NCBI GenBank assembly: GCA_017437285.1
Contig: JAFSBM010000072.1
Coordinates: forward strand, 1 to 32,240
Source of the DNA: Ruminococcus sp.
GTDB lineage: Bacteria > Bacillota > Clostridia > Oscillospirales > Ruminococcaceae
DNA length: 32,240 nucleotides
Reading direction: 5' to 3'
Shown: in pieces, positions 15,574-28,320 of the stretch
Position numbering within the stretch: position 1 is the first letter of the stretch
Layout: each line of letters opens with the position of its first letter
The notes under the pieces: model-generated
Seen by the model: the letters and a program-made list of their open reading frames with translations, nothing else
Databases searched by the model: none
Told to the model about the DNA's origin: nothing
Program-made: the position numbers and the translations under genes

Positions 15574-18084
15574 ATGAATTTTTTCAAAAAAATAGTTTCC
15601 GCTGTCTGTGGAACGGTCTTTCTTGCCGCATCTCTCCCATTCATCGGGAATGAGTCAAAGGCTGTTGACGCTTCAAAAAATGTTTCCGATGAAGTGGGTA
15701 TTGCGTGTAATCTTTTTAACATCAGCGGCGAAAATACCGCAGATAATACGGCTGTTCAATGGGCAACAACTCTTGATGCACAGCACTTTACCCTTTACCG
15801 TTCAGAAAATGCAGAAAGGAATTTCATCCCTGTCTATGAGGGAACGGGAACTTCTTTTGACGACTGCAATCTGAAAATCGGCGAAACTTATTACTATCAG
15901 CTGAAAGTAAAAACAGAGGACAGGGAATATTTTTCCTCCGTGAAGTCCGTAACTCCCGAACTGCTGCCTGAGGGACTCAATACCTACGATAACCAAAAGG
16001 GCAGCAGCCTTGTATATTCCACAAGCGGCTTTAAATCGGGGGATAAGTATTACAGCTATTCTCTGAAAGCACACCCCGGGCAGAATGACATTTACCTTGC
16101 GGAATCAGTTTCAAATGACGGCAGAAATTTCGGAGCAGAGCGTACAGTTGCGGATTCAAGCCAGAATAGTGCTATGGCAAGCTGTAAAATTGAGTCAATC
16201 CACATTGAATATGTTCCCGAAAAAAATAAAGTCGTTGTGTGGGCACATTGGGAAAAGCCCAGCGGCTACAGCGACGGAAAAGCACTTGTAATTACAGGTA
16301 CACCAGGGGGGAATTTTACGGTTCATCACGTATATAATCCGTTGGGAATTCAAGTGCGTGATATGGCGGTATTCTTTGACGATGACGCAAACAGAACAGG
16401 TTATATCATTGCCGCCGCCAATAAAGAGGGACAGGGAGCAAATGCGACTCTCTACATTTTCAAGCTTAACGATGATTACAGCGATGTTACTGAAATTGCC
16501 AATATTCTCTTTGACAATCAGTATCGTGAATTCCCAAATATGATTAAGCAGAACGGCTGCTATTTCCTTTTCACCTCACAGGCGGCAGGCTGGTATCCCA
16601 GCAGCGGTGCATACAGCGTAACCGACAACATATCGGGGGAGTGGAGCGAACTGCGAAGTATAGGCAATACCTCCACATTCTCCTCGCAGTCGGGCTGGAT
16701 TGTAAATTTGCAGAATAAAAATTATCTAATGCACGCATATCGCTGGCTGAGAGCATCATCTACAAGCGGAACTACACTTTGTCCGCTGTATTTTGACAAC
16801 ACTTTTGCATTTTACGATTATTACCCCTCATTCAAATACAGCACAGCCACAGGTGCGTTATATCCCGTCCGTCAGGGGGAACTGCTTTCACAGGATAAGC
16901 CTGTCACAGCTTCAATAGCATCGAAAGCGGGCAATTCCGCTGAAAAAGCAGTTGACGGTTCATATCAGTCGTCATTCACGGCAATCGGCGATTTTAAGAA
17001 ATGGCCCTTTTACATTCAGATTGACCTTGAAGATGTCTGCGAATTGTCAAATATTCAGACTTCCTGGTATATCTGCAAAGGCTCTGAGGGATACTACACA
17101 TACACCGTTGAGGGAAGTATTGACGGCGTTAACTGGAAACAAATCCTTGACCATACCGACAAAAACAGCGATATAGTCAACTCCACATACGGCTTTAACA
17201 GCGATATGCTGTCGGGAACAGCACGATATATCCGCCTTAATGTTAAGAATGCCACACTTCACAACAATCCCAACAACAACTGGTATACACCCACAGTTTA
17301 CGAAGTCAAGGTATACGGAACTCCCGTAGAAAGCGGAAAAATGCCAGCTCCTGCGGCTGTTTATGATTTTGAAAACGGCAGCGGAAATATGAAGCTTTTC
17401 GGCAATGCCAATACATCAAATAAAACTCTTGTCCTTGACGGCACAGCTGATACATACGCACAATTGCCCGAGGGATTACTTGACGGCTGCAGCGATTATA
17501 CGATTATTATGGACGCAAAGTCAAATTCAACAGGAGATTTCTTCACCTTTGCGGCAGGTCAGGACAATGTCAAATACGCATTTTTCAAGATAGCACAGGA
17601 CCATTTCAGATTTGCCACAACTGTTGACAGCTGGCGGAATGAAAGCGGTTTGCGGTATGACCTTGACGGCACACAATGGCACAGATATATGCTTGTTGTA
17701 AATGGTGCAACTGCAAGACTTTATGTTGACGGCAAGCTTGTAGCAAAAACAACTGAGCTGACAACTCTTGTTTCTGATATGGGAGCAGGGTTGAAATATT
17801 ATCTCGGCAAATCATTTTTTGAGGCAGATGCGAATTTCACAGGTGAAATCGACAATGTGACAATCTACAAAAATGCACTGAATGAAGCTGAAATCGCATC
17901 GTTATTGCAGGTTGAGGGAGATGCCAACGCTGACGGACAATTCTCCGTAGCTGACCTTGTATGCCTTTCAGAGTTTCTGCTCAAAAACAAAGCTATCCCC
18001 AATAATAAGGCGGCTGACCTGATAAAGGATAATCGCATTGATGTTTATGATATGATTAAAATGAGAGAAATGATTATAGAATAA
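15574..18084 (+). CDS. Cellulosomal GH43-like glycosidase with CBM32-like, LamG-like and dockerin modules
   Basis: An 836-residue secreted enzyme. Modules: signal peptide (1-30), fibronectin-like domain (about 42-128), five-bladed propeller resembling GH43 (about 140-430), discoidin/CBM32-like domain (about 438-582), LamG-type jelly roll (about 595-778) and dockerin (781-836). In the propeller, RDMAVFFDDD (262-271), the likely acid E319 in YREFPNM and SQSGW (371-375) match the pattern of exo-beta-1,3-galactanase-like GH43 (subfamily 24), where a Gln replaces the usual Asp base; Q372 would be that residue. Substrate is thus possibly a galactan or arabinogalactan side chain. The second calcium loop of the dockerin is degenerate (Ile at position 3). 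The ribosome binding site AAAAGGA lies directly behind the MITE duplication. Confidence 0.85.
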   Translation: MNFFKKIVSAVCGTVFLAASLPFIGNESKAVDASKNVSDEVGIACNLFNISGENTADNTAVQWATTLDAQHFTLYRSENAERNFIPVYEGTGTSFDDCNLKIGETYYYQLKVKTEDREYFSSVKSVTPELLPEGLNTYDNQKGSSLVYSTSGFKSGDKYYSYSLKAHPGQNDIYLAESVSNDGRNFGAERTVADSSQNSAMASCKIESIHIEYVPEKNKVVVWAHWEKPSGYSDGKALVITGTPGGNFTVHHVYNPLGIQVRDMAVFFDDDANRTGYIIAAANKEGQGANATLYIFKLNDDYSDVTEIANILFDNQYREFPNMIKQNGCYFLFTSQAAGWYPSSGAYSVTDNISGEWSELRSIGNTSTFSSQSGWIVNLQNKNYLMHAYRWLRASSTSGTTLCPLYFDNTFAFYDYYPSFKYSTATGALYPVRQGELLSQDKPVTASIASKAGNSAEKAVDGSYQSSFTAIGDFKKWPFYIQIDLEDVCELSNIQTSWYICKGSEGYYTYTVEGSIDGVNWKQILDHTDKNSDIVNSTYGFNSDMLSGTARYIRLNVKNATLHNNPNNNWYTPTVYEVKVYGTPVESGKMPAPAAVYDFENGSGNMKLFGNANTSNKTLVLDGTADTYAQLPEGLLDGCSDYTIIMDAKSNSTGDFFTFAAGQDNVKYAFFKIAQDHFRFATTVDSWRNESGLRYDLDGTQWHRYMLVVNGATARLYVDGKLVAKTTELTTLVSDMGAGLKYYLGKSFFEADANFTGEIDNVTIYKNALNEAEIASLLQVEGDANADGQFSVADLVCLSEFLLKNKAIPNNKAADLIKDNRIDVYDMIKMREMIIE

Positions 18085-18101: not shown

Positions 18102-18129
18102 AAGGCGTATGCTCACCAGCATACGCCTT
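18102..18129. terminator. Bidirectional terminator between the GH43-like gene and tyrS
   Basis: A perfect 12-bp stem (18102-18113 with 18118-18129) and a CACC loop lie between convergent genes. T-rich sequence follows on both strands. Confidence 0.9.
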
Positions 18130-18134
18130 TAATA

Positions 18135-19352
18135 TTACTTAACAATAATCTTCTTGAATGCCTTTTTACCCTTACGGATAATTACATCGCCCTCAAGCTT
18201 AATCTGAGCCTTTCCGTCAGTCATTTTCTCATCGTTAACTGTGATACCGCCCTGCTGAACAAGTCGTCTTGCCTCTGAAATTGAAGGAGCAAGTCCAGCC
18301 TTTACAACAAGTGTGAGAAGTCCCATAGCACCGTCAGTAAGCTCTGCGGAATCAATCTCAACTGTAGGCATATTCTCGTCATTTCCGCCGCCGCCGAAAA
18401 GTGCCTTTGCAGCTGCCTTAGCCTTTTCAGCTTCTTCCTCGCCGTGAACAAGCTTTGTAAGTTCGTATGCAAGGAGTTCCTTTGCAGCATTGAACTGAGC
18501 ACCTTCCATAGTCTTTTCCATTTCCTCGATTTCCTCAACAGGAACGAATGTGAGCATTTTCAGGCACTTGATAACGTCAGCGTCAGCAACATTTCTCCAG
18601 TACTGGAAGAACTCGTAAGGAGTTGTCTTTTCAGGGTCAAGCCAAACAGCACCCTTTTCAGTCTTACCCATTTTCTTACCCTCGGAGTTGAGGAGGAGAG
18701 TAATTGTCATAGCGTAAGCGTCCTTGCCAAGCTTACGGCGGATAAGTTCTGTACCGCCAAGCATATTAGCCCACTGGTCATCGCCGCCGAACTGCATATT
18801 ACAGCCGTACTTCTGGAAAAGTTCCATAAAGTCGTAGCTCTGCATAATCATATAGTTGAATTCAAGGAAAGTAAGACCTCTCTCCATTCTCTGCTTGTAG
18901 CACTCGTGGGAGAGCATACGGTTTACGCTGAAACAAGCACCAACATCACGGAGAAGCTCAACATAATTGAGATTCATAAGCCAGTCAGCGTTGTTTACAA
19001 CAATTGCCTTATCCTCGGAAAAGTCGATAAAACGGCTCATCTGCTTCTTGAAACAATCTACATTGTGCTGAATTGTTTCGGGAGTCATCATCTTTCTCAT
19101 ATCTGTCTTACCTGAGGGGTCGCCAATCATAGCTGTACCGCCGCCGATAAGAACGATAGGCTTATTGCCTGCCATTTGCAGACGTTTCATAAGGCAAAGT
19201 GCCATAAAATGTCCAACATGGAGGGAATCAGCTGTGGGGTCGAAACCGATGTAGAAAGTTGCCTTTCCTGCGTTTACAAGTTCTTCGATTTCCTTTTCGT
19301 CGGTCAGCTGTGCAAGCAGACCTCTGCGTCTGAGTTCTTCAAAAGTAGTCAT
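18135..19352 (-). CDS. tyrS: Tyrosyl-tRNA synthetase
   Basis: This class I aminoacyl-tRNA synthetase charges tRNA-Tyr. The 405-residue protein has the HIGH-equivalent HVGH at 45-48, the tyrosine-binding QSYDFMELF and [10 protein letters not shown] segments, the KMSKS-equivalent KMGKT at 227-231, and a C-terminal S4 RNA-binding domain (about 340-405). Length is normal. It is the last gene of a run of six minus-strand genes whose leader is a T-box with a Tyr (TAC) specifier at 23041-23318. There is no T-box directly upstream. An AGGAGAA site precedes the ATG, 15 bases after the GNAT gene. Confidence 0.97.
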
Positions 19353-19367
19353 AATTTTTATTCTCCT

Positions 19368-19829
19368 TTAAATTTTTATTTCCATTTTATATGTGCGTGG
19401 AACAAATCCCATTTCTGAGTAAAATTCAACTGCGTTATAGTTTTCGCACCACACTCCAAGCTCAACCGACTGACAATTATTTTCAGCGGCAAGCTTTTTA
19501 ACGTAATTCATAAGCTTTTTGCCAATGCCTTTTCTCCTGAATTTTTCATTGACAGCAAACTGCTCTAAAAGGCATTTTCTGAAAGGACAATTAAGAGGTT
19601 CAGTCATTTCTACATAAAGGATAATTGCGTATCCCATAATTTCGGAATTATTATCATAGACAAAAACCGTCAGTTCTTCATTTTCCATAAATTTTTTTAT
19701 TTGCTTTTCAAAGAAATCAATATCAGGCATTTTATAGTAATCACTTCTTATTTCACAATGAATACTATGCAGTTGTCTGTAAATCTCGGCAAGCTGCGGA
19801 ATATCGGACATTTTTGCTTTTCTAATCAT
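19368..19829 (-). CDS. GNAT family N-acetyltransferase
   Basis: A 153-residue single-domain acetyltransferase. Motif A, which binds acetyl-CoA, is FAVNEKFRRKGIGKKLM with RRKGIG at 98-103; motif B follows at NAVEFYSEMGFVPRTYKMEI. The acceptor substrate cannot be inferred. It lies 15 bases upstream of tyrS, with which it is probably co-transcribed, and 101 bases downstream of the epimerase-like gene, the largest gap in this operon. GAGGAAA precedes the ATG. Confidence 0.88.
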   Translation of the reverse strand: MIRKAKMSDIPQLAEIYRQLHSIHCEIRSDYYKMPDIDFFEKQIKKFMENEELTVFVYDNNSEIMGYAIILYVEMTEPLNCPFRKCLLEQFAVNEKFRRKGIGKKLMNYVKKLAAENNCQSVELGVWCENYNAVEFYSEMGFVPRTYKMEIKI

Positions 19830-19841
19830 TTAAATTTCCTC

Positions 19842-19901
19842 ACTTTCATAAGTTTTCTTACAAAAGTGAATCATATGCGATGAAATCTATTGCAGATTTC
19901 A
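19842..19901 (-). other. Two stem-loops in the largest gap of the tyrS operon
   Basis: TGAAATCT (19881-19888) pairs with AGATTTCA (19894-19901). A second hairpin at about 19842-19869 pairs CACTTT with AAAGTG, and TAAG with CTTA inside it. Neither has a U tract on the minus strand. The second lies just before the GNAT ribosome binding site. They may affect mRNA processing; I see no terminator or promoter here. Confidence 0.4.
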
Positions 19902-19930
19902 CGGATACCACCGCCTTTCATAATATTCTA

Positions 19931-20827
19931 TTAAAAATGTTCCTCAATATATCTGAAATAATCCTTGCGGACTATCAGTTCACGATTATTCTTGAACCAC
20001 TCATATGATTCTTTCAAGCCAATTTCAAGGGGCTTCAAATCGGGCAGTAATTCTGTTTGTCTTGTAACATCAAGATAATATTCATAATCTCTGAAAGGGA
20101 AATACTGACGCTGTTCGTATTCAGCCGAAACATAGTGTATATCGGGAGTTTTTCCCAGTATACCATAACAAAGCTTTACCCATTCAGCCGCATTAATCGC
20201 CTGTACATTACCCGAATTTATAACGTGATAATCAGGCTTTTTCTCAACAATAGCCTCAATAAGCCTGCACAAATCCTCAACATCAAAAAATTGAAGTTTA
20301 AGTGAGCCGTCTTTTGGCATATAAAATGGGAGATTTTTTTCTGCACATTCAAAAACAAATGCCTCACGGTAGAGATTATTCATTTTGCCGTAGAGATATG
20401 GGGGACGGATTATATAAGCTTTCGGTAGATTTTCAAGGAGATATTCTTCCGCTTCAATTTTATTTGTGCCGTAAGCCTCCCAATGAATGTTATAGCCTGT
20501 TTTCATATCTTCTTTGAATGGCTGTGGGAGAGTTTCGGGGTAAACCGCACTTGAACTAATCATAATATATTCGCCGAAATCACCAAGAGCGTTTAATAAA
20601 TCCCTTACATCGTCCTTATTATATGAAGTAACATCAACAACAAGGTCAAAGGGGATATTTTTCAGCTTATCACCCAGTTGGTGACGGTCAGCTTCAATAA
20701 GATGCGCACCCTTGGATTGAGGACGGCTGTTTCTGTTGAGAACATACACCTCGTGTCCCTTTTGCACAAAATATTCCGCTGTGTATCGGCTTACAAATAC
20801 TGTTCCGCCTGTTAAAAGAATTTTCAT
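19931..20827 (-). CDS. NAD(P)-dependent epimerase/dehydratase-like protein (extended SDR)
   Basis: A 298-residue extended short-chain dehydrogenase/reductase. The Rossmann start is KILLTGGTVFVSRY; the third Gly of the usual GGTGFIGR is Ser13. The active-site Ser is in ISSSAVY (91-96) and the YxxxK pair is Y119/K123. The C-terminal domain shows the substrate-binding region FFDVEDLCRLIEAI. Relatives act on nucleotide sugars or mRNA-binding CSP41-like targets; the substrate is not evident. GAGGAG precedes the ATG, which lies 12 bases after the upstream membrane-protein gene. Confidence 0.85.
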   Translation of the reverse strand: MKILLTGGTVFVSRYTAEYFVQKGHEVYVLNRNSRPQSKGAHLIEADRHQLGDKLKNIPFDLVVDVTSYNKDDVRDLLNALGDFGEYIMISSSAVYPETLPQPFKEDMKTGYNIHWEAYGTNKIEAEEYLLENLPKAYIIRPPYLYGKMNNLYREAFVFECAEKNLPFYMPKDGSLKLQFFDVEDLCRLIEAIVEKKPDYHVINSGNVQAINAAEWVKLCYGILGKTPDIHYVSAEYEQRQYFPFRDYEYYLDVTRQTELLPDLKPLEIGLKESYEWFKNNRELIVRKDYFRYIEEHF

Positions 20828-20839
20828 AGTATCAGCTCC

Positions 20840-21721
20840 TCAAACTACTATCTCATTTTCAGTTTTTTCTTTGTATGCTGTTTTGTCGGCATCTCCTGCC
20901 AATGCTCTGAGTTCTGAAATTGCCGCTTCAACCTGATATGCGTCAAGTTCAACTGAGTATGCCGTATCAGCTGTTATATTCAGCTTGAACTTGTATTGCT
21001 CTCCGGCATAAATATTGTCCATATAATTCTTCAATCTTATAATAGTCTTTGAAACATTTGTTATCTGATTATTATCAATTGCATATACTGCATCTTTGTT
21101 GTAAATAACAGTATATTTTCCGCCAATATTTATTCCCTTTCCATTGCGGTAATCTTTATTTGAAAGGATTTTTCCCGATACATAGGAAAATTCAATATCA
21201 CTGCAATCAGGGTTATTTTTATAGAAGTTTCTCAATGGAACGGCAATAATATATTTTATTCCAAATGAATACAGAAGAAATAAACCAATCAGCAAGCCGA
21301 AGATGAAGTAAAAAATATTTGTAAATTCAAATTCAACAAAGAAAACACAAAAGGAACCAACTATCATTAAAATTCCAAAAAGCATAAATGGAATTGATAC
21401 CATTCGACGATATCTCTTTGTTAAATCTGCTTTCATGCCTTTTTTATCAGGTGTTTCAAAAAAATCTTCTGTAACACGGCTTAAATACTTCTCACGCCAT
21501 TCCGCACTATTGAAATAACTTTCATCTATAATGCGATCCTTGAGTAATTGAGCCTTTTTGTCATCCTTTTTTTCTTTTATAGATGCAAATATAAAGAATA
21601 AACCAACAATAGCTGTAAGTAAAAAAGCGTAAATTATAGGAATACCTTTGAGATAGAACATTAATGGTGCAAAGATAATAAGACCGATAAAAACCGCTAT
21701 CATCGTAGGTTTTGAGTTCAT
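20840..21721 (-). CDS. Integral membrane protein with C-terminal soluble domain, unknown function
   Basis: I do not recognise this 293-residue protein. Two hydrophobic segments at the N terminus (about 6-47) and two in the middle (about 113-170) flank a charged cytoplasmic loop. The C-terminal third is soluble and beta-rich (about 175-280, including GKYTVIYNKDAVYAIDNNQIT). GAGGTGA precedes the ATG. It is 11 bases downstream of the radical SAM gene and 12 bases upstream of the epimerase gene, so it belongs to the same transcript. Confidence 0.8.
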   Translation of the reverse strand: MNSKPTMIAVFIGLIIFAPLMFYLKGIPIIYAFLLTAIVGLFFIFASIKEKKDDKKAQLLKDRIIDESYFNSAEWREKYLSRVTEDFFETPDKKGMKADLTKRYRRMVSIPFMLFGILMIVGSFCVFFVEFEFTNIFYFIFGLLIGLFLLYSFGIKYIIAVPLRNFYKNNPDCSDIEFSYVSGKILSNKDYRNGKGINIGGKYTVIYNKDAVYAIDNNQITNVSKTIIRLKNYMDNIYAGEQYKFKLNITADTAYSVELDAYQVEAAISELRALAGDADKTAYKEKTENEIVV

Positions 21722-21732
21722 GTTATCACCTC

Positions 21733-22620
21733 TCAGAAAAACGAAAGCTGATTATCTCCATACCCCATTTTATAGGCGGAAATAATGCTTTTCATATTGT
21801 AGATTATTCCGTATCTTTCGCAGTCCTCGGTAAATACTTTCCACAGCTTTTTCATATTGGGACTGACACATTCGTATCTGTTTCCGTAATAGCTTATATA
21901 CTGCTGTCGGAGGTTGCTGTCGGGGAACCGCTTGTCCAGTTCGTTGAGGAAATGCTCACGCTGATTTGTCCGCAGAGTTACCCCGAAAAATGGGTAAATG
22001 CACCGCACTCCGCATTGGTGTGCAGTACGGACAATATTTCTGATATTCTCCACGCTGTCCTCAATAAAGGGGAGTACAGGCATAAGAGTAATCCCCGTGA
22101 AAAGTCCGCTGTCAGCCATTTTCGCCAATGCCTCAAATCGCTCCGAAGCAACAGAAACATTCGGCTCAATTATCCTGCACAAATTATCGTCAGCAGTAGT
22201 AATTGTCATTTTACACAGCACAGGGGAATTATCCGCAATTTCCTTATACACATCAATATCCCGTGTTATAAGGTCGCTTTTGGTGATTACCGTTAAACCA
22301 AAACCGTAAGCAGAAATCAGCTCCAGAGAGTGACGTGTAAGCAGTTCCGTTTTTTCAAAAGGATTATACGGGTCGCTCATTGCTCCCGTACCTATAATTC
22401 CCGATTTCACCTTTCTCCGCAATTCGTTACGCAGTATTTCAAGTGCATTTTCTTTTGCGTGAACTGTGTCAAAATCCTCAACATGATAACATTCAGAACG
22501 GCTGTCGCAGTAAATACAGCCGTGACAGCAGCCACGATATAAATTCATATTATAATCGTTGCCAAACCATTCCGATGTTTTATTCTTTTGCAGAATAGTC
22601 TTTGCAGGTACCGTTTTCAT
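21733..22620 (-). CDS. Radical SAM protein, SPL/Rv2578c-like
   Basis: A 295-residue radical SAM enzyme of the spore photoproduct lyase-related COG1533 type. The cluster motif is CxxxCxxC at C31, C35 and C38 (YRGCCHGCIYCDSR), followed by GTGAMSDPYNPFEK and TLMPVLPFIEDS, both characteristic of this subgroup. True spore photoproduct lyases are longer at the N terminus and have different downstream motifs, so the substrate is unknown. The ATG overlaps the TGA of the preceding 135-residue gene (ATGA), which indicates translational coupling. It lies second after the Tyr T-box leader. Confidence 0.88.
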   Translation of the reverse strand: MKTVPAKTILQKNKTSEWFGNDYNMNLYRGCCHGCIYCDSRSECYHVEDFDTVHAKENALEILRNELRRKVKSGIIGTGAMSDPYNPFEKTELLTRHSLELISAYGFGLTVITKSDLITRDIDVYKEIADNSPVLCKMTITTADDNLCRIIEPNVSVASERFEALAKMADSGLFTGITLMPVLPFIEDSVENIRNIVRTAHQCGVRCIYPFFGVTLRTNQREHFLNELDKRFPDSNLRQQYISYYGNRYECVSPNMKKLWKVFTEDCERYGIIYNMKSIISAYKMGYGDNQLSFF

Positions 22621-23024
22621 AATATACTTTTTTCGTCGCTGATTACATCAAGGTGTCTGCGGTAACGCTTGGGAATATTAATTCCCACAAGGTATCCCAT
22701 AGAATGAAGAAATTCAGATATAACAGAAAATCCGTCCTTATAAAAAGCTTCAATTCTCTTATCCTTATAAGTGATATTCTTGTAATCGGGAGGGCATACA
22801 AATGTCCAGTCCGCACCGCTTTTATCAAATACTACGTGAAAAAATTTGTCTATATCCGTATCTCTGAAACCTGCTTTCATAAGCAGAATATGATGCTCCA
22901 CAGCCTCGTCAATATGGCTTACAATCGCAGATTTTCCGTCAAAGGCAATTACAGCAAGAAGCGGTTCATCGGCTGATATTGCATTTTTTACACTATTATC
23001 ATCGGGGAATTTTCTTATTTCCAT
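22617..23024 (-). CDS. Uncharacterised 135-residue protein, first gene after the Tyr T-box
   Basis: I cannot assign a family. The protein is soluble, without signal peptide or cysteine clusters, and has alternating strands and helices (AVIAFDGKSAIVSHIDEAVEHHILLMKAG; DWTFVCPPDYKNITYKDKRIEAFYKDGF). GGGAGG lies close before the ATG, about 16 bases after the T-box terminator. It is coupled by an ATGA overlap to the radical SAM gene, so the two products probably act together, for example with this protein as a substrate-recognition or accessory partner. Confidence 0.75.
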   Translation of the reverse strand: MEIRKFPDDNSVKNAISADEPLLAVIAFDGKSAIVSHIDEAVEHHILLMKAGFRDTDIDKFFHVVFDKSGADWTFVCPPDYKNITYKDKRIEAFYKDGFSVISEFLHSMGYLVGINIPKRYRRHLDVISDEKSIL

Positions 23025-23040
23025 AAAGCCTCCCTAAAAC

Positions 23041-23318
23041 AAAAATCCCCGTACAGCCCAAACTGTACGAGGACGAAATTACTCGTGGTACCACCTCGGT
23101 TTATCGGGAAAACTCCCGACCTCAAAAGGCTATAACGTGCCTAACCGTCCCTGCCTACTTAGTTTCAACAGGGCAACTCCCGAATGTAATTCTCTGTGAC
23201 AGCTGACTTTCTCCCACCGTCCGAAAGCTCTCTGGACAGCTGTTTTCACAGGTTTTATTCGTTCACCGTTTTATATTGATATGCAGACAAACTTTTGAAT
23301 ATTCGCAAGTTAACTGCT
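23041..23318 (-). promoter_or_regulatory. T-box leader with tyrosine specifier
   Basis: On the minus strand the leader contains the T-box core GAGGTGGTACCACGAG and an antiterminator that pairs CGAGG with CCTCG. This excludes the terminator CCTCGTACAG / CTGTACGGGG followed by ATTTTT (about 23041-23068). Aligning the specifier loop with the glyQS paradigm (GAAA-GGC-A-UUC) gives GAAT-TAC-A-TTC, so the specifier is TAC (23186-23188), tyrosine. The UGGN base is T (TGGT, 23090-23093), complementary to A73 of tRNA-Tyr. Uncharged tRNA-Tyr would switch on the downstream operon, of which tyrS is the last gene. Confidence 0.88.
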
Positions 23319-23324
23319 ACATCA

Positions 23325-23353
23325 ATAATAACATATCCTATGAAAAAAGTCAA
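23325..23353 (-). promoter_or_regulatory. Promoter of the T-box operon
   Basis: On the minus strand TTGACT (23348-23353), a 17-base spacer and TATTAT (23325-23330). It is divergent from the tRNA-Thr promoter. Confidence 0.65.
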
Positions 23354-23433: not shown

Positions 23434-23509
23434 GCTGATGTGGCACAGTCGGTAGCGCAACGCCTTGGTAAGGCGTAGGTCGTCGGTTCAAGTCCGATCA
23501 TCAGCTCCA
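23434..23509 (+). tRNA. tRNA-Thr (anticodon GGT)
   Basis: A 76-base cloverleaf: acceptor GCTGATG/CATCAGC, anticodon stem ACGCC/GGCGT with loop TTGGTAA (anticodon GGT), T-arm GTCGG-TTCAAGT-CCGAT, discriminator T and an encoded CCA. It is a solitary gene with its own promoter and terminator. Confidence 0.97.
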
Positions 23510-23649: not shown

Positions 23650-24213
23650 TTAATTGCTATTCAGGTAATCAGCAAGTTCTTTAATCCAATCAGGAATATA
23701 GCCGCCTTTTGTAATAAGTGAGCCGTTCTTGTACTCCGCCTTCTCGGTGAAGCCGTTCTCATTGTCAAAGAAGCGTACTTCATTGCAGTAAGGCAAAATT
23801 TTAGCCAAATCCTCAAAGCGTTTGCTGTAACGTCTTTCAACATCCTGTGGAGCAATATTGTGTCCGCCCTTTTCCACACGGTTTTTAATACGTTTTATGC
23901 TTTCTTCAGAGGAATTTACACCAACATAATATAAACGAATGAAATAGTTAAGTTCACGGGCTTTCTGAATTGTTTTAAGCGTGCGTACTCCCGAGAGAGT
24001 TGTTTCCTGAGTGAAGTTTATGCCTTTTTTAAGACAATCCTCAATCCGTTCAATTGCAAGTTTACCGCCTTTAATTCTGTCACCGCCCTGCTCAGCTGTC
24101 AGCTTATCGGTATCTATTATAATACCCAAATCAGTATTTTCAGCAGACAGAACTCCCGATAGGCTGCTTTTGCCTACTCCGTTCACTCCGCCGATTATTG
24201 TATATATTTTCAT
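23650..24213 (-). CDS. Zeta-toxin-like P-loop kinase (COG4185-type)
   Basis: A 187-residue AAA/P-loop protein with Walker A GGVNGVGKSS (G9-S17), followed by IIIDTDKLTAEQGG and a central helical region rich in Arg/Lys (RIKNRVEKGGHN). This matches the zeta-toxin / 'predicted ABC-type ATPase' group, which phosphorylates UDP-N-acetylglucosamine in plasmid toxins; chromosomal solitary members are less understood. No epsilon-type antitoxin gene is adjacent, so toxicity should not be assumed. AGGAGG precedes the ATG. It has its own promoter (24316-24344) and terminator. Confidence 0.82.
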   Translation of the reverse strand: MKIYTIIGGVNGVGKSSLSGVLSAENTDLGIIIDTDKLTAEQGGDRIKGGKLAIERIEDCLKKGINFTQETTLSGVRTLKTIQKARELNYFIRLYYVGVNSSEESIKRIKNRVEKGGHNIAPQDVERRYSKRFEDLAKILPYCNEVRFFDNENGFTEKAEYKNGSLITKGGYIPDWIKELADYLNSN

Positions 24214-26387: not shown

Positions 26388-26448
26388 ATAAAAGGAAAAC
26401 AGCGTATTCACAATGCTATGTTATATTATTTTATGCAGGAGTATAAAC

Positions 26449-27006
26449 ATGAAATTGTTGAAACGAACATTGATATGTATGATATTGATTTGTATTTTGC
26501 TTTTTGTCTTAAATATGACAATTGCAAAAGACATTATAATAATTGAGTATTTAAGTACGTATTTGTTTTGTGCTGTTATAGTGTTTACATTGTTCTTACT
26601 ATGTCTGATACTCATAAAAAATAAGAACGAAGTATTTTCCGCCATAACAATAATCATTTGTTTCTTAATATCATTTTCAACTTGTGTCACTATGATAGGA
26701 ATAAGCCGTAGATTACATAAAAATCCACAGTGTTACAATGTTAAAATCGAAAATTTGCCAAGTGATTATGAGATTGTGTTATATGAATATGGAAAGTTCA
26801 GAGGAAAAAGCGGTTGTTTGTGTATTAAAGAAAATAAATACGTTTTCAGAAAAATAAAAAATACCAAATATAATATTATGTCAGGAACACTTTCAGATGA
26901 AAATAATCTGATATTGAATTACAACGCTGAAACAAAAGAATTGAATATGAAATATAAATTCAGTTCAAATTCAGAGTATACCGAGCAAACAGCGATTATC
27001 GAATAA
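26449..27006 (+). CDS. Small membrane protein, paralogue 1
   Basis: A 185-residue protein with about three N-terminal hydrophobic helices (about 6-28, 36-58 and 68-90) and an extracytoplasmic C-terminal domain. The domain (IENLPSDYEIVLYEYGKFRGK...LCIKENKYVFRKIKNTKY...LNYNAETKELNMKYKF) is clearly related to that of the gene at 27060 (shared pattern ENL...Y.HEY / L.V.KN / TKY / Y..ET..L.MKY), so they are tandem paralogues. I do not recognise the family. AGGAG lies 9 bases upstream of the ATG. Base composition is visibly more AT-rich than the housekeeping genes. Confidence 0.75.
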   Translation: MKLLKRTLICMILICILLFVLNMTIAKDIIIIEYLSTYLFCAVIVFTLFLLCLILIKNKNEVFSAITIIICFLISFSTCVTMIGISRRLHKNPQCYNVKIENLPSDYEIVLYEYGKFRGKSGCLCIKENKYVFRKIKNTKYNIMSGTLSDENNLILNYNAETKELNMKYKFSSNSEYTEQTAIIE

Positions 27007-27059
27007 TATTAAGGGCATCTCTAAAAAATATGACGAAAATCAGGCGGAAAGGAAATGTT

Positions 27060-27638
27060 ATGTTAAAAAAGATTAGGATTTTTTTAATCTGCACTCTTAC
27101 TTTATCTATAATAATCTGGATAACTGCATTTATAATAACTCAAAAATACGTAATAAGAGGTTTCTCATTATTGTATCCTATATATGGAATGATATTTTCC
27201 ATATCTTGCTTGTTTATTATTGAAATAATCAAAAAAGGCAAATTAAAAAGAGTAGCACAAGTGGTTATTAGTTCATTAATTGCTTTTGGTGCATTTATCT
27301 GCTGTTTTACTATATTAAGTGTTAATGATGTGTTTTTCGGTTCAGGTGAATTGTATGCAGTTTCCGTTGAAAATCTGACGGCTGAAAATGAAGTCTATTT
27401 GCACGAATATCATCACTTTAATTCTAACGAAGGAATGTTATGCGTTAAAAAGAATGATATCTTCTACTTAAAACTCAAAGAAACAAAATATCGAGTTGAA
27501 CTAAACCACACAGTTTCAGACCCGAAAAACAGGATACTTACTTACGATAAAGAAACAGGTGTATTGACAATGAAGTATACACATGATAAATATGGTGGAT
27601 ATTATGAAAACTACACCACTTATTTTTGCGATAAGTAG
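27060..27638 (+). CDS. Small membrane protein, paralogue 2
   Basis: A 192-residue protein with the same plan as the gene at 26449: three hydrophobic N-terminal helices and a soluble C-terminal domain (VENLTAENEVYLHEYHHF...MLCVKKNDIFYLKLKETKY...LTYDKETGVLTMKY). Identity to paralogue 1 is evident across the soluble domain and low in the helices. The start at 27060 follows GGAAAGGAA; an ATG 30 bases earlier lies next to the MITE-type end and lacks a good site. A MITE-type end (27013) separates the two paralogues. Confidence 0.75.
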   Translation: MLKKIRIFLICTLTLSIIIWITAFIITQKYVIRGFSLLYPIYGMIFSISCLFIIEIIKKGKLKRVAQVVISSLIAFGAFICCFTILSVNDVFFGSGELYAVSVENLTAENEVYLHEYHHFNSNEGMLCVKKNDIFYLKLKETKYRVELNHTVSDPKNRILTYDKETGVLTMKYTHDKYGGYYENYTTYFCDK

Positions 27639-27711
27639 TCGGGAAAACTGAATTTCGTGGTTGGTAATGCACACGTTAAATCAACATGTGAGGTAATAGG
27701 AGGAAAACTTT

Positions 27712-28320
27712 ATGAAGAAAGCAATTAAAATTTCCGCTATTATATTATTAATTATAATAACACCTATTGTATTAATGTTTCTGGTAGTATTCTTCTTGTT
27801 TCAGGAAAAAGAATACAATATTAAAACAGAGTATGGGGATTCGTTTGTCATATATGGCGGCGGTTTTATCGGTGAATATCGTATTTCAGAAAAAAATAAC
27901 AAATCAATAATCTTAGCTACTGCTGAAATGTATTATAAAAAAAGCGATTTCCAACCCATATGCGATACCGATTCGTTCAGGGCGTACAGTTTTATTAATA
28001 AACATGATGAAATATATATAATGAAAATAAAGAAATATGATGAGTTTTTTGTTATTTACAAAGATGAAGAAAAATATAATAAACATATATTTGAATCAAT
28101 TATCAAAACAGAGCTTCTGAGTGACATTGAATTGATGAAAGTAGTACTACCGTATTTTAATCAATATTATCATGACGAATTACTCGACATTGCCCAAACG
28201 CTGAATTCTGATAATATTCAATCCCTTAATCAATATGGATTAACGCAAGAGATGATAGACGATGAAGAAACTCTTAATCAAAAAAAGCAGCTTATCAATT
28301 CAATTTTAGAAAAAAAATAA
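27712..28320 (+). CDS. Membrane-anchored protein of unknown function
   Basis: A 202-residue protein with one N-terminal membrane segment (about residues 6-30) and a charged, Lys/Tyr/Ile-rich domain outside or inside the membrane (EYGDSFVIYGGGFIGEYRISEKNN...DEEKYNKHIFESIIKTELL). It is not obviously related to the two paralogues upstream. AGGAGG lies 8 bases before the ATG. Strong AT bias and lack of a recognisable family suggest accessory DNA. A strong terminator follows at 28440. Confidence 0.7.
   Translation: MKKAIKISAIILLIIITPIVLMFLVVFFLFQEKEYNIKTEYGDSFVIYGGGFIGEYRISEKNNKSIILATAEMYYKKSDFQPICDTDSFRAYSFINKHDEIYIMKIKKYDEFFVIYKDEEKYNKHIFESIIKTELLSDIELMKVVLPYFNQYYHDELLDIAQTLNSDNIQSLNQYGLTQEMIDDEETLNQKKQLINSILEKK

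Follow-up and report, generated by a model that had tools for sequence, protein, structure and literature searches.

The window analysed here is a 32,240-nt stretch of a Ruminococcus sp. genome (contig JAFSBM010000072.1, contig 50 of a 4.13-Mb genome that is 99.9% complete). Its minus strand carries what reads as one tyrosine T-box operon, with the tyrosyl-tRNA synthetase gene tyrS as its last gene and exchangeable passenger genes in the interval between the T-box leader and tyrS. Within this interval, the 101-nt gap between an SDR gene and a GNAT acetyltransferase gene holds a predicted leader open reading frame (ORF) with a Tyr codon and a predicted hairpin over the GNAT Shine-Dalgarno sequence, both of which were missed in an earlier note on this DNA. 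Uncharged tRNA-Tyr is likely to be sensed twice at this locus, by the T-box and then by translation of the leader ORF, with its one key Tyr codon ahead of GNAT and tyrS.

The T-box operon and its passenger genes

The T-box leader (RF00230; 23066-23275, minus strand, as are all features of the operon) is a complete match to the model (positions 1-219, 126.7 bits against a gathering score of 93, E 5e-28). By the usual reading rule the specifier is TAC (23188-23186); the bulge is TGGT (23093-23090; core GGTGGTACC), and both fit tRNA-Tyr as read from sequence. The register was verified on the asnS T-box of the same genome (L003), where the same rule reads AAC. The specifier and bulge proposed in the earlier note hold, and the specifier other than TAC that it had named as a refutation did not turn up. 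A promoter-like site, TTGACT-17-TATTAT (23325-23353), precedes the leader as a consensus match alone, with 10/12 positions and a TG ahead of the second hexamer. A terminator-like hairpin of 13 pairs followed by a T-run lies at 23045-23074. An Rfam match named trpB at 23035-23130 fell far under its cut-off and was rejected.

ORFs and family matches agree with the earlier description of six same-strand genes ending in tyrS, separated by successive gaps of -4, 11, 12, 101 and 15 nt. The first gene (g1, 22617-23024, 135 aa) has no Pfam or NCBIfam match, and its relatives are the first gene behind the T-box in L156 and L163. It is followed by a radical SAM protein gene (g2, 21733-22620) that resembles Rv2578c and PA0069 at scores below the cut-offs of those models, and by a 293-aa protein (g3, 20840-21721) with no family above cut-off, membrane-like by eye, which single-linkage clustering groups into a set of 15 cargo ORFs (one contig represented twice and one gene in two pieces). 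Family matches identify g4 (19931-20827) as an NAD-dependent epimerase/SDR protein and g5 (19368-19829) as a GNAT acetyltransferase. The closest solved relatives of the GNAT by profile are BH1408 and PaiA, which give no substrate lead; a search of viral contigs found no relative of it, and PADLOC on six window proteins returned one weak match, GNAT to PDC-M11A. The last gene, tyrS (g6, 18135-19352; TIGR00234, 426.6 bits), is the sole copy found in the genome and is followed by a 12-pair terminator (18102-18129). In the collection searched, the closest named relatives of its product, TyrRS, are Ruminococcus flavefaciens records (91-94%).

The conservation of this arrangement was examined in 60 genomes forming part of the genus, of which 55 gave a tyrS match. 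The genus table comprises 48 fetched tyrS places and the window (49 loci), each with up to 12 kb upstream of tyrS. It omits G017, with hardly any upstream DNA, fragments of G037 and G021, and G005, G016 and G059, which gave a weak distant tyrS match only. Four contig pairs carry identical DNA (L043/L139, L046/L142, L044/L144 and L048/L159), and each genome was counted once. T-boxes were located by sequence profile and the ORFs between T-box and tyrS were listed; some minus-strand ORFs in these lists are length artefacts of ORF picking. A T-box was detected in 39 of the 49 loci, and contig ends cut some of the other ten. The specifier is TAC in 38 cases (27 by regular expression and 11 by eye). 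The remaining T-box, in L146, lies about 1.6 kb upstream of tyrS and reads TGC where the others have their specifier; its tRNA partner may differ, or the T-box itself may be altered.

The comparison of T-box-tyrS loci, proposed in the earlier note, showed that intervening DNA is common. The distance from T-box to tyrS ranges from 82 to 3684 nt; it is at least 457 nt in 33/39 loci and at most 216 nt in 6/39. A same-strand ORF of at least 60 aa is present in 32 of the 33 long-gap loci. At asnS, the sole comparison within the genus, the T-box core lies 87-201 nt upstream in 24/24 orientable loci (the orientation test did not recognise 6 of the 30). Tyr therefore differs from Asn, with a turnover of cargo between T-box and tyrS. 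Outside the genus table, tyrS directly follows the T-box in 40 of 57 loci with a T-box. The premise that a synthetase normally sits directly behind its T-box is thus correct for asnS in the genus and for most loci outside it, but not for tyrS within the genus.

The content of the interval changes from species to species, the same families recurring in different sets. The window order (g1-radical SAM-membrane-SDR-GNAT-tyrS) recurs without g1 in L152, whose TyrRS is 99% identical. L156 has g1-radical SAM-GNAT remnant-tyrS, L163 g1-tyrS, L161 SDR-tyrS and L125 methyltransferase-radical SAM-tyrS. A 153-aa membrane-like protein comes first in 11 loci (two being the same contig), UvrA is found in L042 and L126, dCTP-deaminase-like proteins occur elsewhere, and L150 has seven small genes. 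UvrA, deaminase, methyltransferase and membrane-like are labels given by eye from the sequences and do not come from a family search. In L068, L082 and L101 the order T-box-GNAT-tyrS does occur. The two explanations offered earlier for the distal tyrS, insertion of five genes or a tyrosine-starvation regulon, are incomplete in view of this pattern: the cargo did not arrive as one insertion, and it is not a fixed tyrosine-starvation regulon.

Several loci deserve separate mention. UvrA-like, endonuclease V-like and GIY-YIG-like proteins (by eye) lie between Tyr T-box and tyrS in L042, L126, L051 and L043; together with the radical SAM and dCTP-deaminase-like cargo, they may point to a lean to DNA and nucleotide enzymes. 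A decayed GNAT lies between leader element and tyrS at L156:3741-3920 (minus strand), where relatives hold an intact gene. In L127 and L128 a radical SAM gene and a 106-aa gene precede tyrS, with no T-box detected.

Transcription would run through the 4 kb from the T-box, including the leader ORF. From the T-box terminator to the end of tyrS there is one terminator-like site, within the radical SAM gene, and the region as a whole has 3 such sites against 4.0 expected from shuffles. If GNAT and tyrS had their own promoter in the SDR-GNAT gap, the T-box would control the cargo only. The candidate is TTGAGG-16-TATTAT at 19947-19920, and the whole scan returned 25 promoter-like sites against 16.5 ± 3.6 in shuffles. 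However, this site matches at only 9/12 positions, and its -10 TATTAT is not conserved at the same place in the nearest relative, L152. In L158, L161 and L165 the relatives of the SDR gene end 10-13 nt before tyrS, which leaves no room for a promoter in the gap, although the interior of the SDR gene may hold one. An internal promoter, which the earlier note had considered together with a terminator in front of GNAT-tyrS, is thus unlikely.

The leader ORF and its two predicted hairpins

The leader ORF (19858-19902) has a GTG start and 14 codons encoding MKSAIDFIAYDSLL before its stop codon. It is preceded by a Shine-Dalgarno sequence, AAAGGCGGTG (19909-19918), so that the window reads AAAGGCGGTG-GTATCC-GTG and continues into MKSAIDFIAYDSLL. 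Codon 10 is the candidate sensor, the Tyr codon TAT (19875-19873). Near-identical stretches precede GNAT in L152, L155 and L055 and the decayed GNAT in L156, and looser forms lie between the T-box end and GNAT in L082, L101 and L068.

Beyond these relatives, the element was searched for across the family. A first pattern, which did not include the sensor codon (ATCCGTGARATN{3,11}ATYTCATC), matched 12 of 396 family genomes, once each, and the reversed control gave none. All 12 places lie ahead of tyrS, either immediately or with a GNAT, a GNAT remnant or one other gene in between, and all 12, the window included, have an in-frame Tyr at codon 9 or 10. A covariance model of the element, R1, was built from 18 sequences; over the 396 genomes all 26 matches with E up to 1.7e-4 lie upstream of tyrS. 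The additional genus copies found by R1 begin with ATG and differ in the letters of the hairpin (MKTPDVFIAY, MRSPDELILY), and they lie between T-box and tyrS wherever both were found. A second model, R2, ends before the sensor codon. Searched over 317 genomes, it gave 26 matches with E up to 3e-6: 24 at tyrS, most of them in its training set, one at pheS and one at an unrelated coding start. The three tyrS copies outside its training (L276, L285 and L287) all have Tyr.

No R1 match at E up to 0.01 was found outside the family among 220 genomes of the order, and Rfam has no match to the element up to E 10. An order-level pattern, AAAGGNGGTGGTATCCGTGA with 2 mismatches, matched 16 of 394 genomes against about 12 in the reversed control and was set aside as mostly chance; of its 17 places only the window and L185 are near tyrS. 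Weak matches (L229-L231, L286 and L288-L291, and 20 fetched among weak R2 places) look coding or chance. Within the genus table the element is present in 25/49 loci, and an R2 rescan of 22 of the 24 leaderless loci (all except L154 and L159) found nothing convincing, the best match (E 0.035) lying outside the interval. A T-box, scored irrespective of its specifier, lies on the same strand at most 1.5 kb upstream in 14 of the 16 tyrS-type leader loci scanned, that of L215 below the gathering score.

The sensor codon is Tyr in 56 of the 57 listed copies, which include two contigs twice. With identical segments merged, 45 unique Tyr-type segments have TAT (41), TAC (3) or AAT (1). The start codon in 49 unique segments is GTG (34), ATG (14) or TTG (1). 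The start-to-sensor distance is 9 codons in 10 segments, 10 codons in 37 (L226 being placed here) and 11 codons in 2; the length thus shifts by whole codons. A Shine-Dalgarno-like run precedes the start in 61/61 copies. These signals, the start codons and the kept frame are indirect signs that the leader ORF may be translated. In G375 the leader ORF reads on, in the same frame, into a longer one that includes a stretch resembling a signal peptide.

Two predicted hairpins accompany the ORF. The first, H1 (19880-19902), has 9 pairs and spans the start codon to codon 8; it appears in the fold of the window and was further assessed by covariation and a synonymous null. Across 35 sequences 96.4% of the cells are paired, with 27 double changes against 5.0 in shuffles. 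Mean pairing is 8.49 of 9 against 6.78 ± 0.17 under synonymous recoding, a value reached in 0 of 2000 recodings. In L219 (VGFVRNSIVY) and L287 (MIFSADIIVY) the arms are rewritten yet still pair, with the Tyr codon unchanged, and in L216 a TTG start breaks the first pair while a start codon is retained. Both the coding of the leader and the structure of H1 look conserved.

The second hairpin, H2 (19839-19870), has 14 pairs, begins 2 nt after the Tyr codon and covers the GNAT Shine-Dalgarno sequence. In the window it folds at -13.5 kcal/mol (z -4.57, 0 of 200 shuffles). To model its effect, the cost of opening the Shine-Dalgarno sequence of the next gene was computed both for the free RNA and for RNA with a ribosome parked on the sensor codon. 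The test set was the 61 copies minus 7 duplicates, L226, and L149, L147, L122 and L227, for which no next gene was found; of the resulting 49, 46 had room for shuffles. Where GNAT is next, the modelled stall saves a mean of 4.17 kcal/mol and 14/15 copies beat at least 55 of 60 shuffles. Where tyrS is next, the mean saving is -0.03 and 2/23 copies do so (Mann-Whitney p 3e-7 between the two groups). The modelled count is 0/4 for pheS and 1/4 for other genes with shuffle room, the mean over all 7 of the latter being 1.05. When 8 of the 15 GNAT leaders were folded jointly, both hairpins were kept and 7/28 pairs covaried. Translational gating therefore has the support of the modelling where GNAT is next, but not where tyrS or pheS is, and a second, translational gate on GNAT is probable. 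The window scan found no terminator-like site between leader and tyrS, as a classical transcription attenuator would call for.

The element also exists in a Phe form. The next-best R1 match, L228 (E 6.5e-4), precedes pheS and reads MERFGSIVFA, with Phe TTT in place of Tyr. Leaders with TTT and the same architecture were found at pheS in 4 of 28 family genomes examined by eye, all of one genus; the pheS leaders (L248, L250, L259 and L244) comprise three related forms and one unrelated hairpin. A T-box core lies at most 420 nt upstream in 10 of the other pheS loci.

Proposed two-step sensing of tRNA-Tyr and its alternatives

Readthrough on uncharged tRNA is established for T-boxes, and on tyrosine shortage the uncharged tRNA-Tyr would let RNA polymerase pass the T-box into the operon. 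A ribosome translating the leader ORF would then stall at the Tyr codon. In the model this ribosome covers the 5' arm of H2 and frees the GNAT Shine-Dalgarno sequence. When tRNA-Tyr is charged, the ribosome would complete the leader, H2 would reform and GNAT would be off. H1, which holds the start codon of the leader, probably limits re-initiation. Before tyrS the leader must act differently, because no Shine-Dalgarno sequence is hidden there in most cases.

A broader proposal is held more tentatively and may well not stand: that the family has a class of ribosome-read sensors, in each of which a Shine-Dalgarno sequence is followed by a self-contained hairpin holding the start codon and then, two codons further on, by one exchangeable specifier codon, which is Tyr at tyrS and Phe at pheS. 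Such a sensor would work by itself at pheS and as a second gate after a T-box at tyrS; in front of either gene it would act other than by hiding the next Shine-Dalgarno sequence, for example through mRNA protection or cutting.

Several observations weigh against two-step sensing. The hidden Shine-Dalgarno model leaves the role of the leader at tyrS and pheS unexplained, and the GNAT has no recognised tie to tyrosine. Classical leader peptides carry runs of codons, and one Tyr codon is little. Of the 39 T-box loci in the genus, 15 gave no detectable leader; in L226 the sensor codon is replaced by AAT; and the GNAT case L203 ranks only 12 of 60 in the stall model. At the four pheS leaders no T-box was found in the scanned stretch (0/4), so the leader can stand alone, and the model finds no hidden Shine-Dalgarno sequence there (0/4). 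The H1 statistics are biased by ascertainment, the hairpin being part of the search models, and by shared ancestry; taken on its own, the 58-nt H1 segment of the window is no more stable than its shuffles (z -1.35, 20 of 200).

The locus could also be a plain T-box operon with inserted genes, the element being a functionless relic of an older T-box antiterminator. The resemblance of GGTGGTATCCGTG to GGTGGTACCGCG, close in the window, and the T-box-GNAT-tyrS order of L068, L082 and L101 would suit such an origin. However, these same three loci hold a complete T-box end with the element behind it. UGGU is not conserved in the element (L101, L199 and L068), whereas the ORF, the hairpin and the Tyr codon are, and the element has no Rfam match even at the permissive limit given above. 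We regard a relic as quite improbable.

A third possibility is that the leader encodes an arrest peptide responsive to an antibiotic or some other small molecule, with GNAT as the resistance gene that it switches on. A leader ORF with a hidden Shine-Dalgarno sequence is the plan of the erm and cat attenuators, and GNATs include drug acetyltransferases, although the matches here are far below cut-off. Against this, the peptide residues vary while the hairpin goes on pairing (VGFVRNSIVY and MIFSADIIVY), and the Tyr codon stays constant. The element also precedes tyrS with no GNAT in 23 cases, and its Phe version precedes pheS. This explanation, too, has little probability.

Least likely of all is a role of the palindrome at the DNA level, either as operator or as recombination site for cargo entry: the palindrome is an intergenic inverted repeat found in its window form once each in 4/60 genus genomes, in an interval of variable cargo, but G-U pairs that break DNA symmetry are common (pair 5, 12/49; pair 1, 30/49), paired changes rewrite the hairpin arms, some loci have a copy but no cargo (L132, L138, L151, L211), others cargo but no copy (e.g. 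L158, L161, L163-L166), and the in-frame Tyr or Phe codon is left unaccounted for.

Relation to known systems and neighbouring features

The T-box, leader-peptide gating and their combination are all known kinds of control. The operon leader is a standard Tyr T-box of the RF00230 type and differs in having tyrS distal, behind variable cargo. To our knowledge, the Trp at operon of Bacillus is the only known case in which a T-box and a leader peptide both sense the same uncharged tRNA; Chen and Yanofsky reportedly described tandem sensing there in 2003. The leader of that operon has three Trp codons, and a ribosome terminating on it blocks the next start site. The likeness lies in the order of a T-box and then a leader ORF with codons of the same amino acid. 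The locus described here would differ in the amino acid (Tyr or Phe, not Trp), in one conserved codon rather than three, in a conserved hairpin over the leader's own start, in its association with aminoacyl-tRNA synthetase operons, and in that a hairpin, not a terminating ribosome, would block the next start.

Short ORFs with cognate codons upstream of synthetase genes are likewise familiar, as in the leader-peptide attenuation of E. coli pheST. The translational attenuators of ermC and cat-86 also use a leader ORF, on which ribosome stalling unfolds a hairpin that covers the next ribosome-binding site, as proposed here for the GNAT cases; the inducer here would be a lack of tyrosyl-tRNA, not a drug.

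Tandem transcriptional and translational control at the B. subtilis at operon (rtpA, anti-TRAP), through sensing of uncharged tRNA, is described in PMC2896485, and PMC11255114 also refers to this work. Leader-peptide attenuation of the synthetase genes trpS and leuS is described for Streptomyces (PMC1262725), where leuS has terminator and antiterminator hairpins, whereas the window has no terminator-like site after the leader. In the accessible portions of the open-access literature, including PMC11255114, PMC1262725, PMC9413887 and PMC2896485 (subscription papers lay mostly outside this scope), no Tyr leader peptide behind a T-box was found, nor the element, its start-codon hairpin, its spread within one family, the Tyr-to-Phe codon change or the variable cargo.

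If two-step sensing is true, a Tyr version in several genera and a natural Tyr-to-Phe swap at pheS would mean that tandem sensing arose more than once, and the element would offer a small amino-acid sensor whose specificity can be swapped. The unusual place of tyrS would likewise become a testable system, in which an essential gene ends a T-box operon whose cargo varies by species.

A possible further pair of T-box and leader peptide occurs in the genome of the window. On contig C203 (L008:843-872, minus strand), an ORF reading MNKRWRRSE, with a good Shine-Dalgarno sequence and one Trp codon, lies between tandem T-boxes (Trp) and a trpB-like gene (by eye), a hint of further pairs of this kind.

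Around the operon, a tRNA-Thr (GGT) gene lies just upstream of the T-box on the opposite strand (23434-23509, plus), and another is found in L141 (5181-5256). A zeta-toxin/AAA-kinase-like gene (23650-24213, minus) stands beside the T-box, and similar proteins (by eye) lie within the T-box-tyrS interval of L042, L122, L130 and L145. Converging on the tyrS terminator, 15574-18084 (plus) encodes a large protein with laminin-G-like and F5/8 type C matches, and with GH43 and dockerin matches below cut-off. At 26413-28320 (plus), three successive ORFs (197, 202 and 202 aa) behind a sigma-70-family gene may be tandem duplicates.

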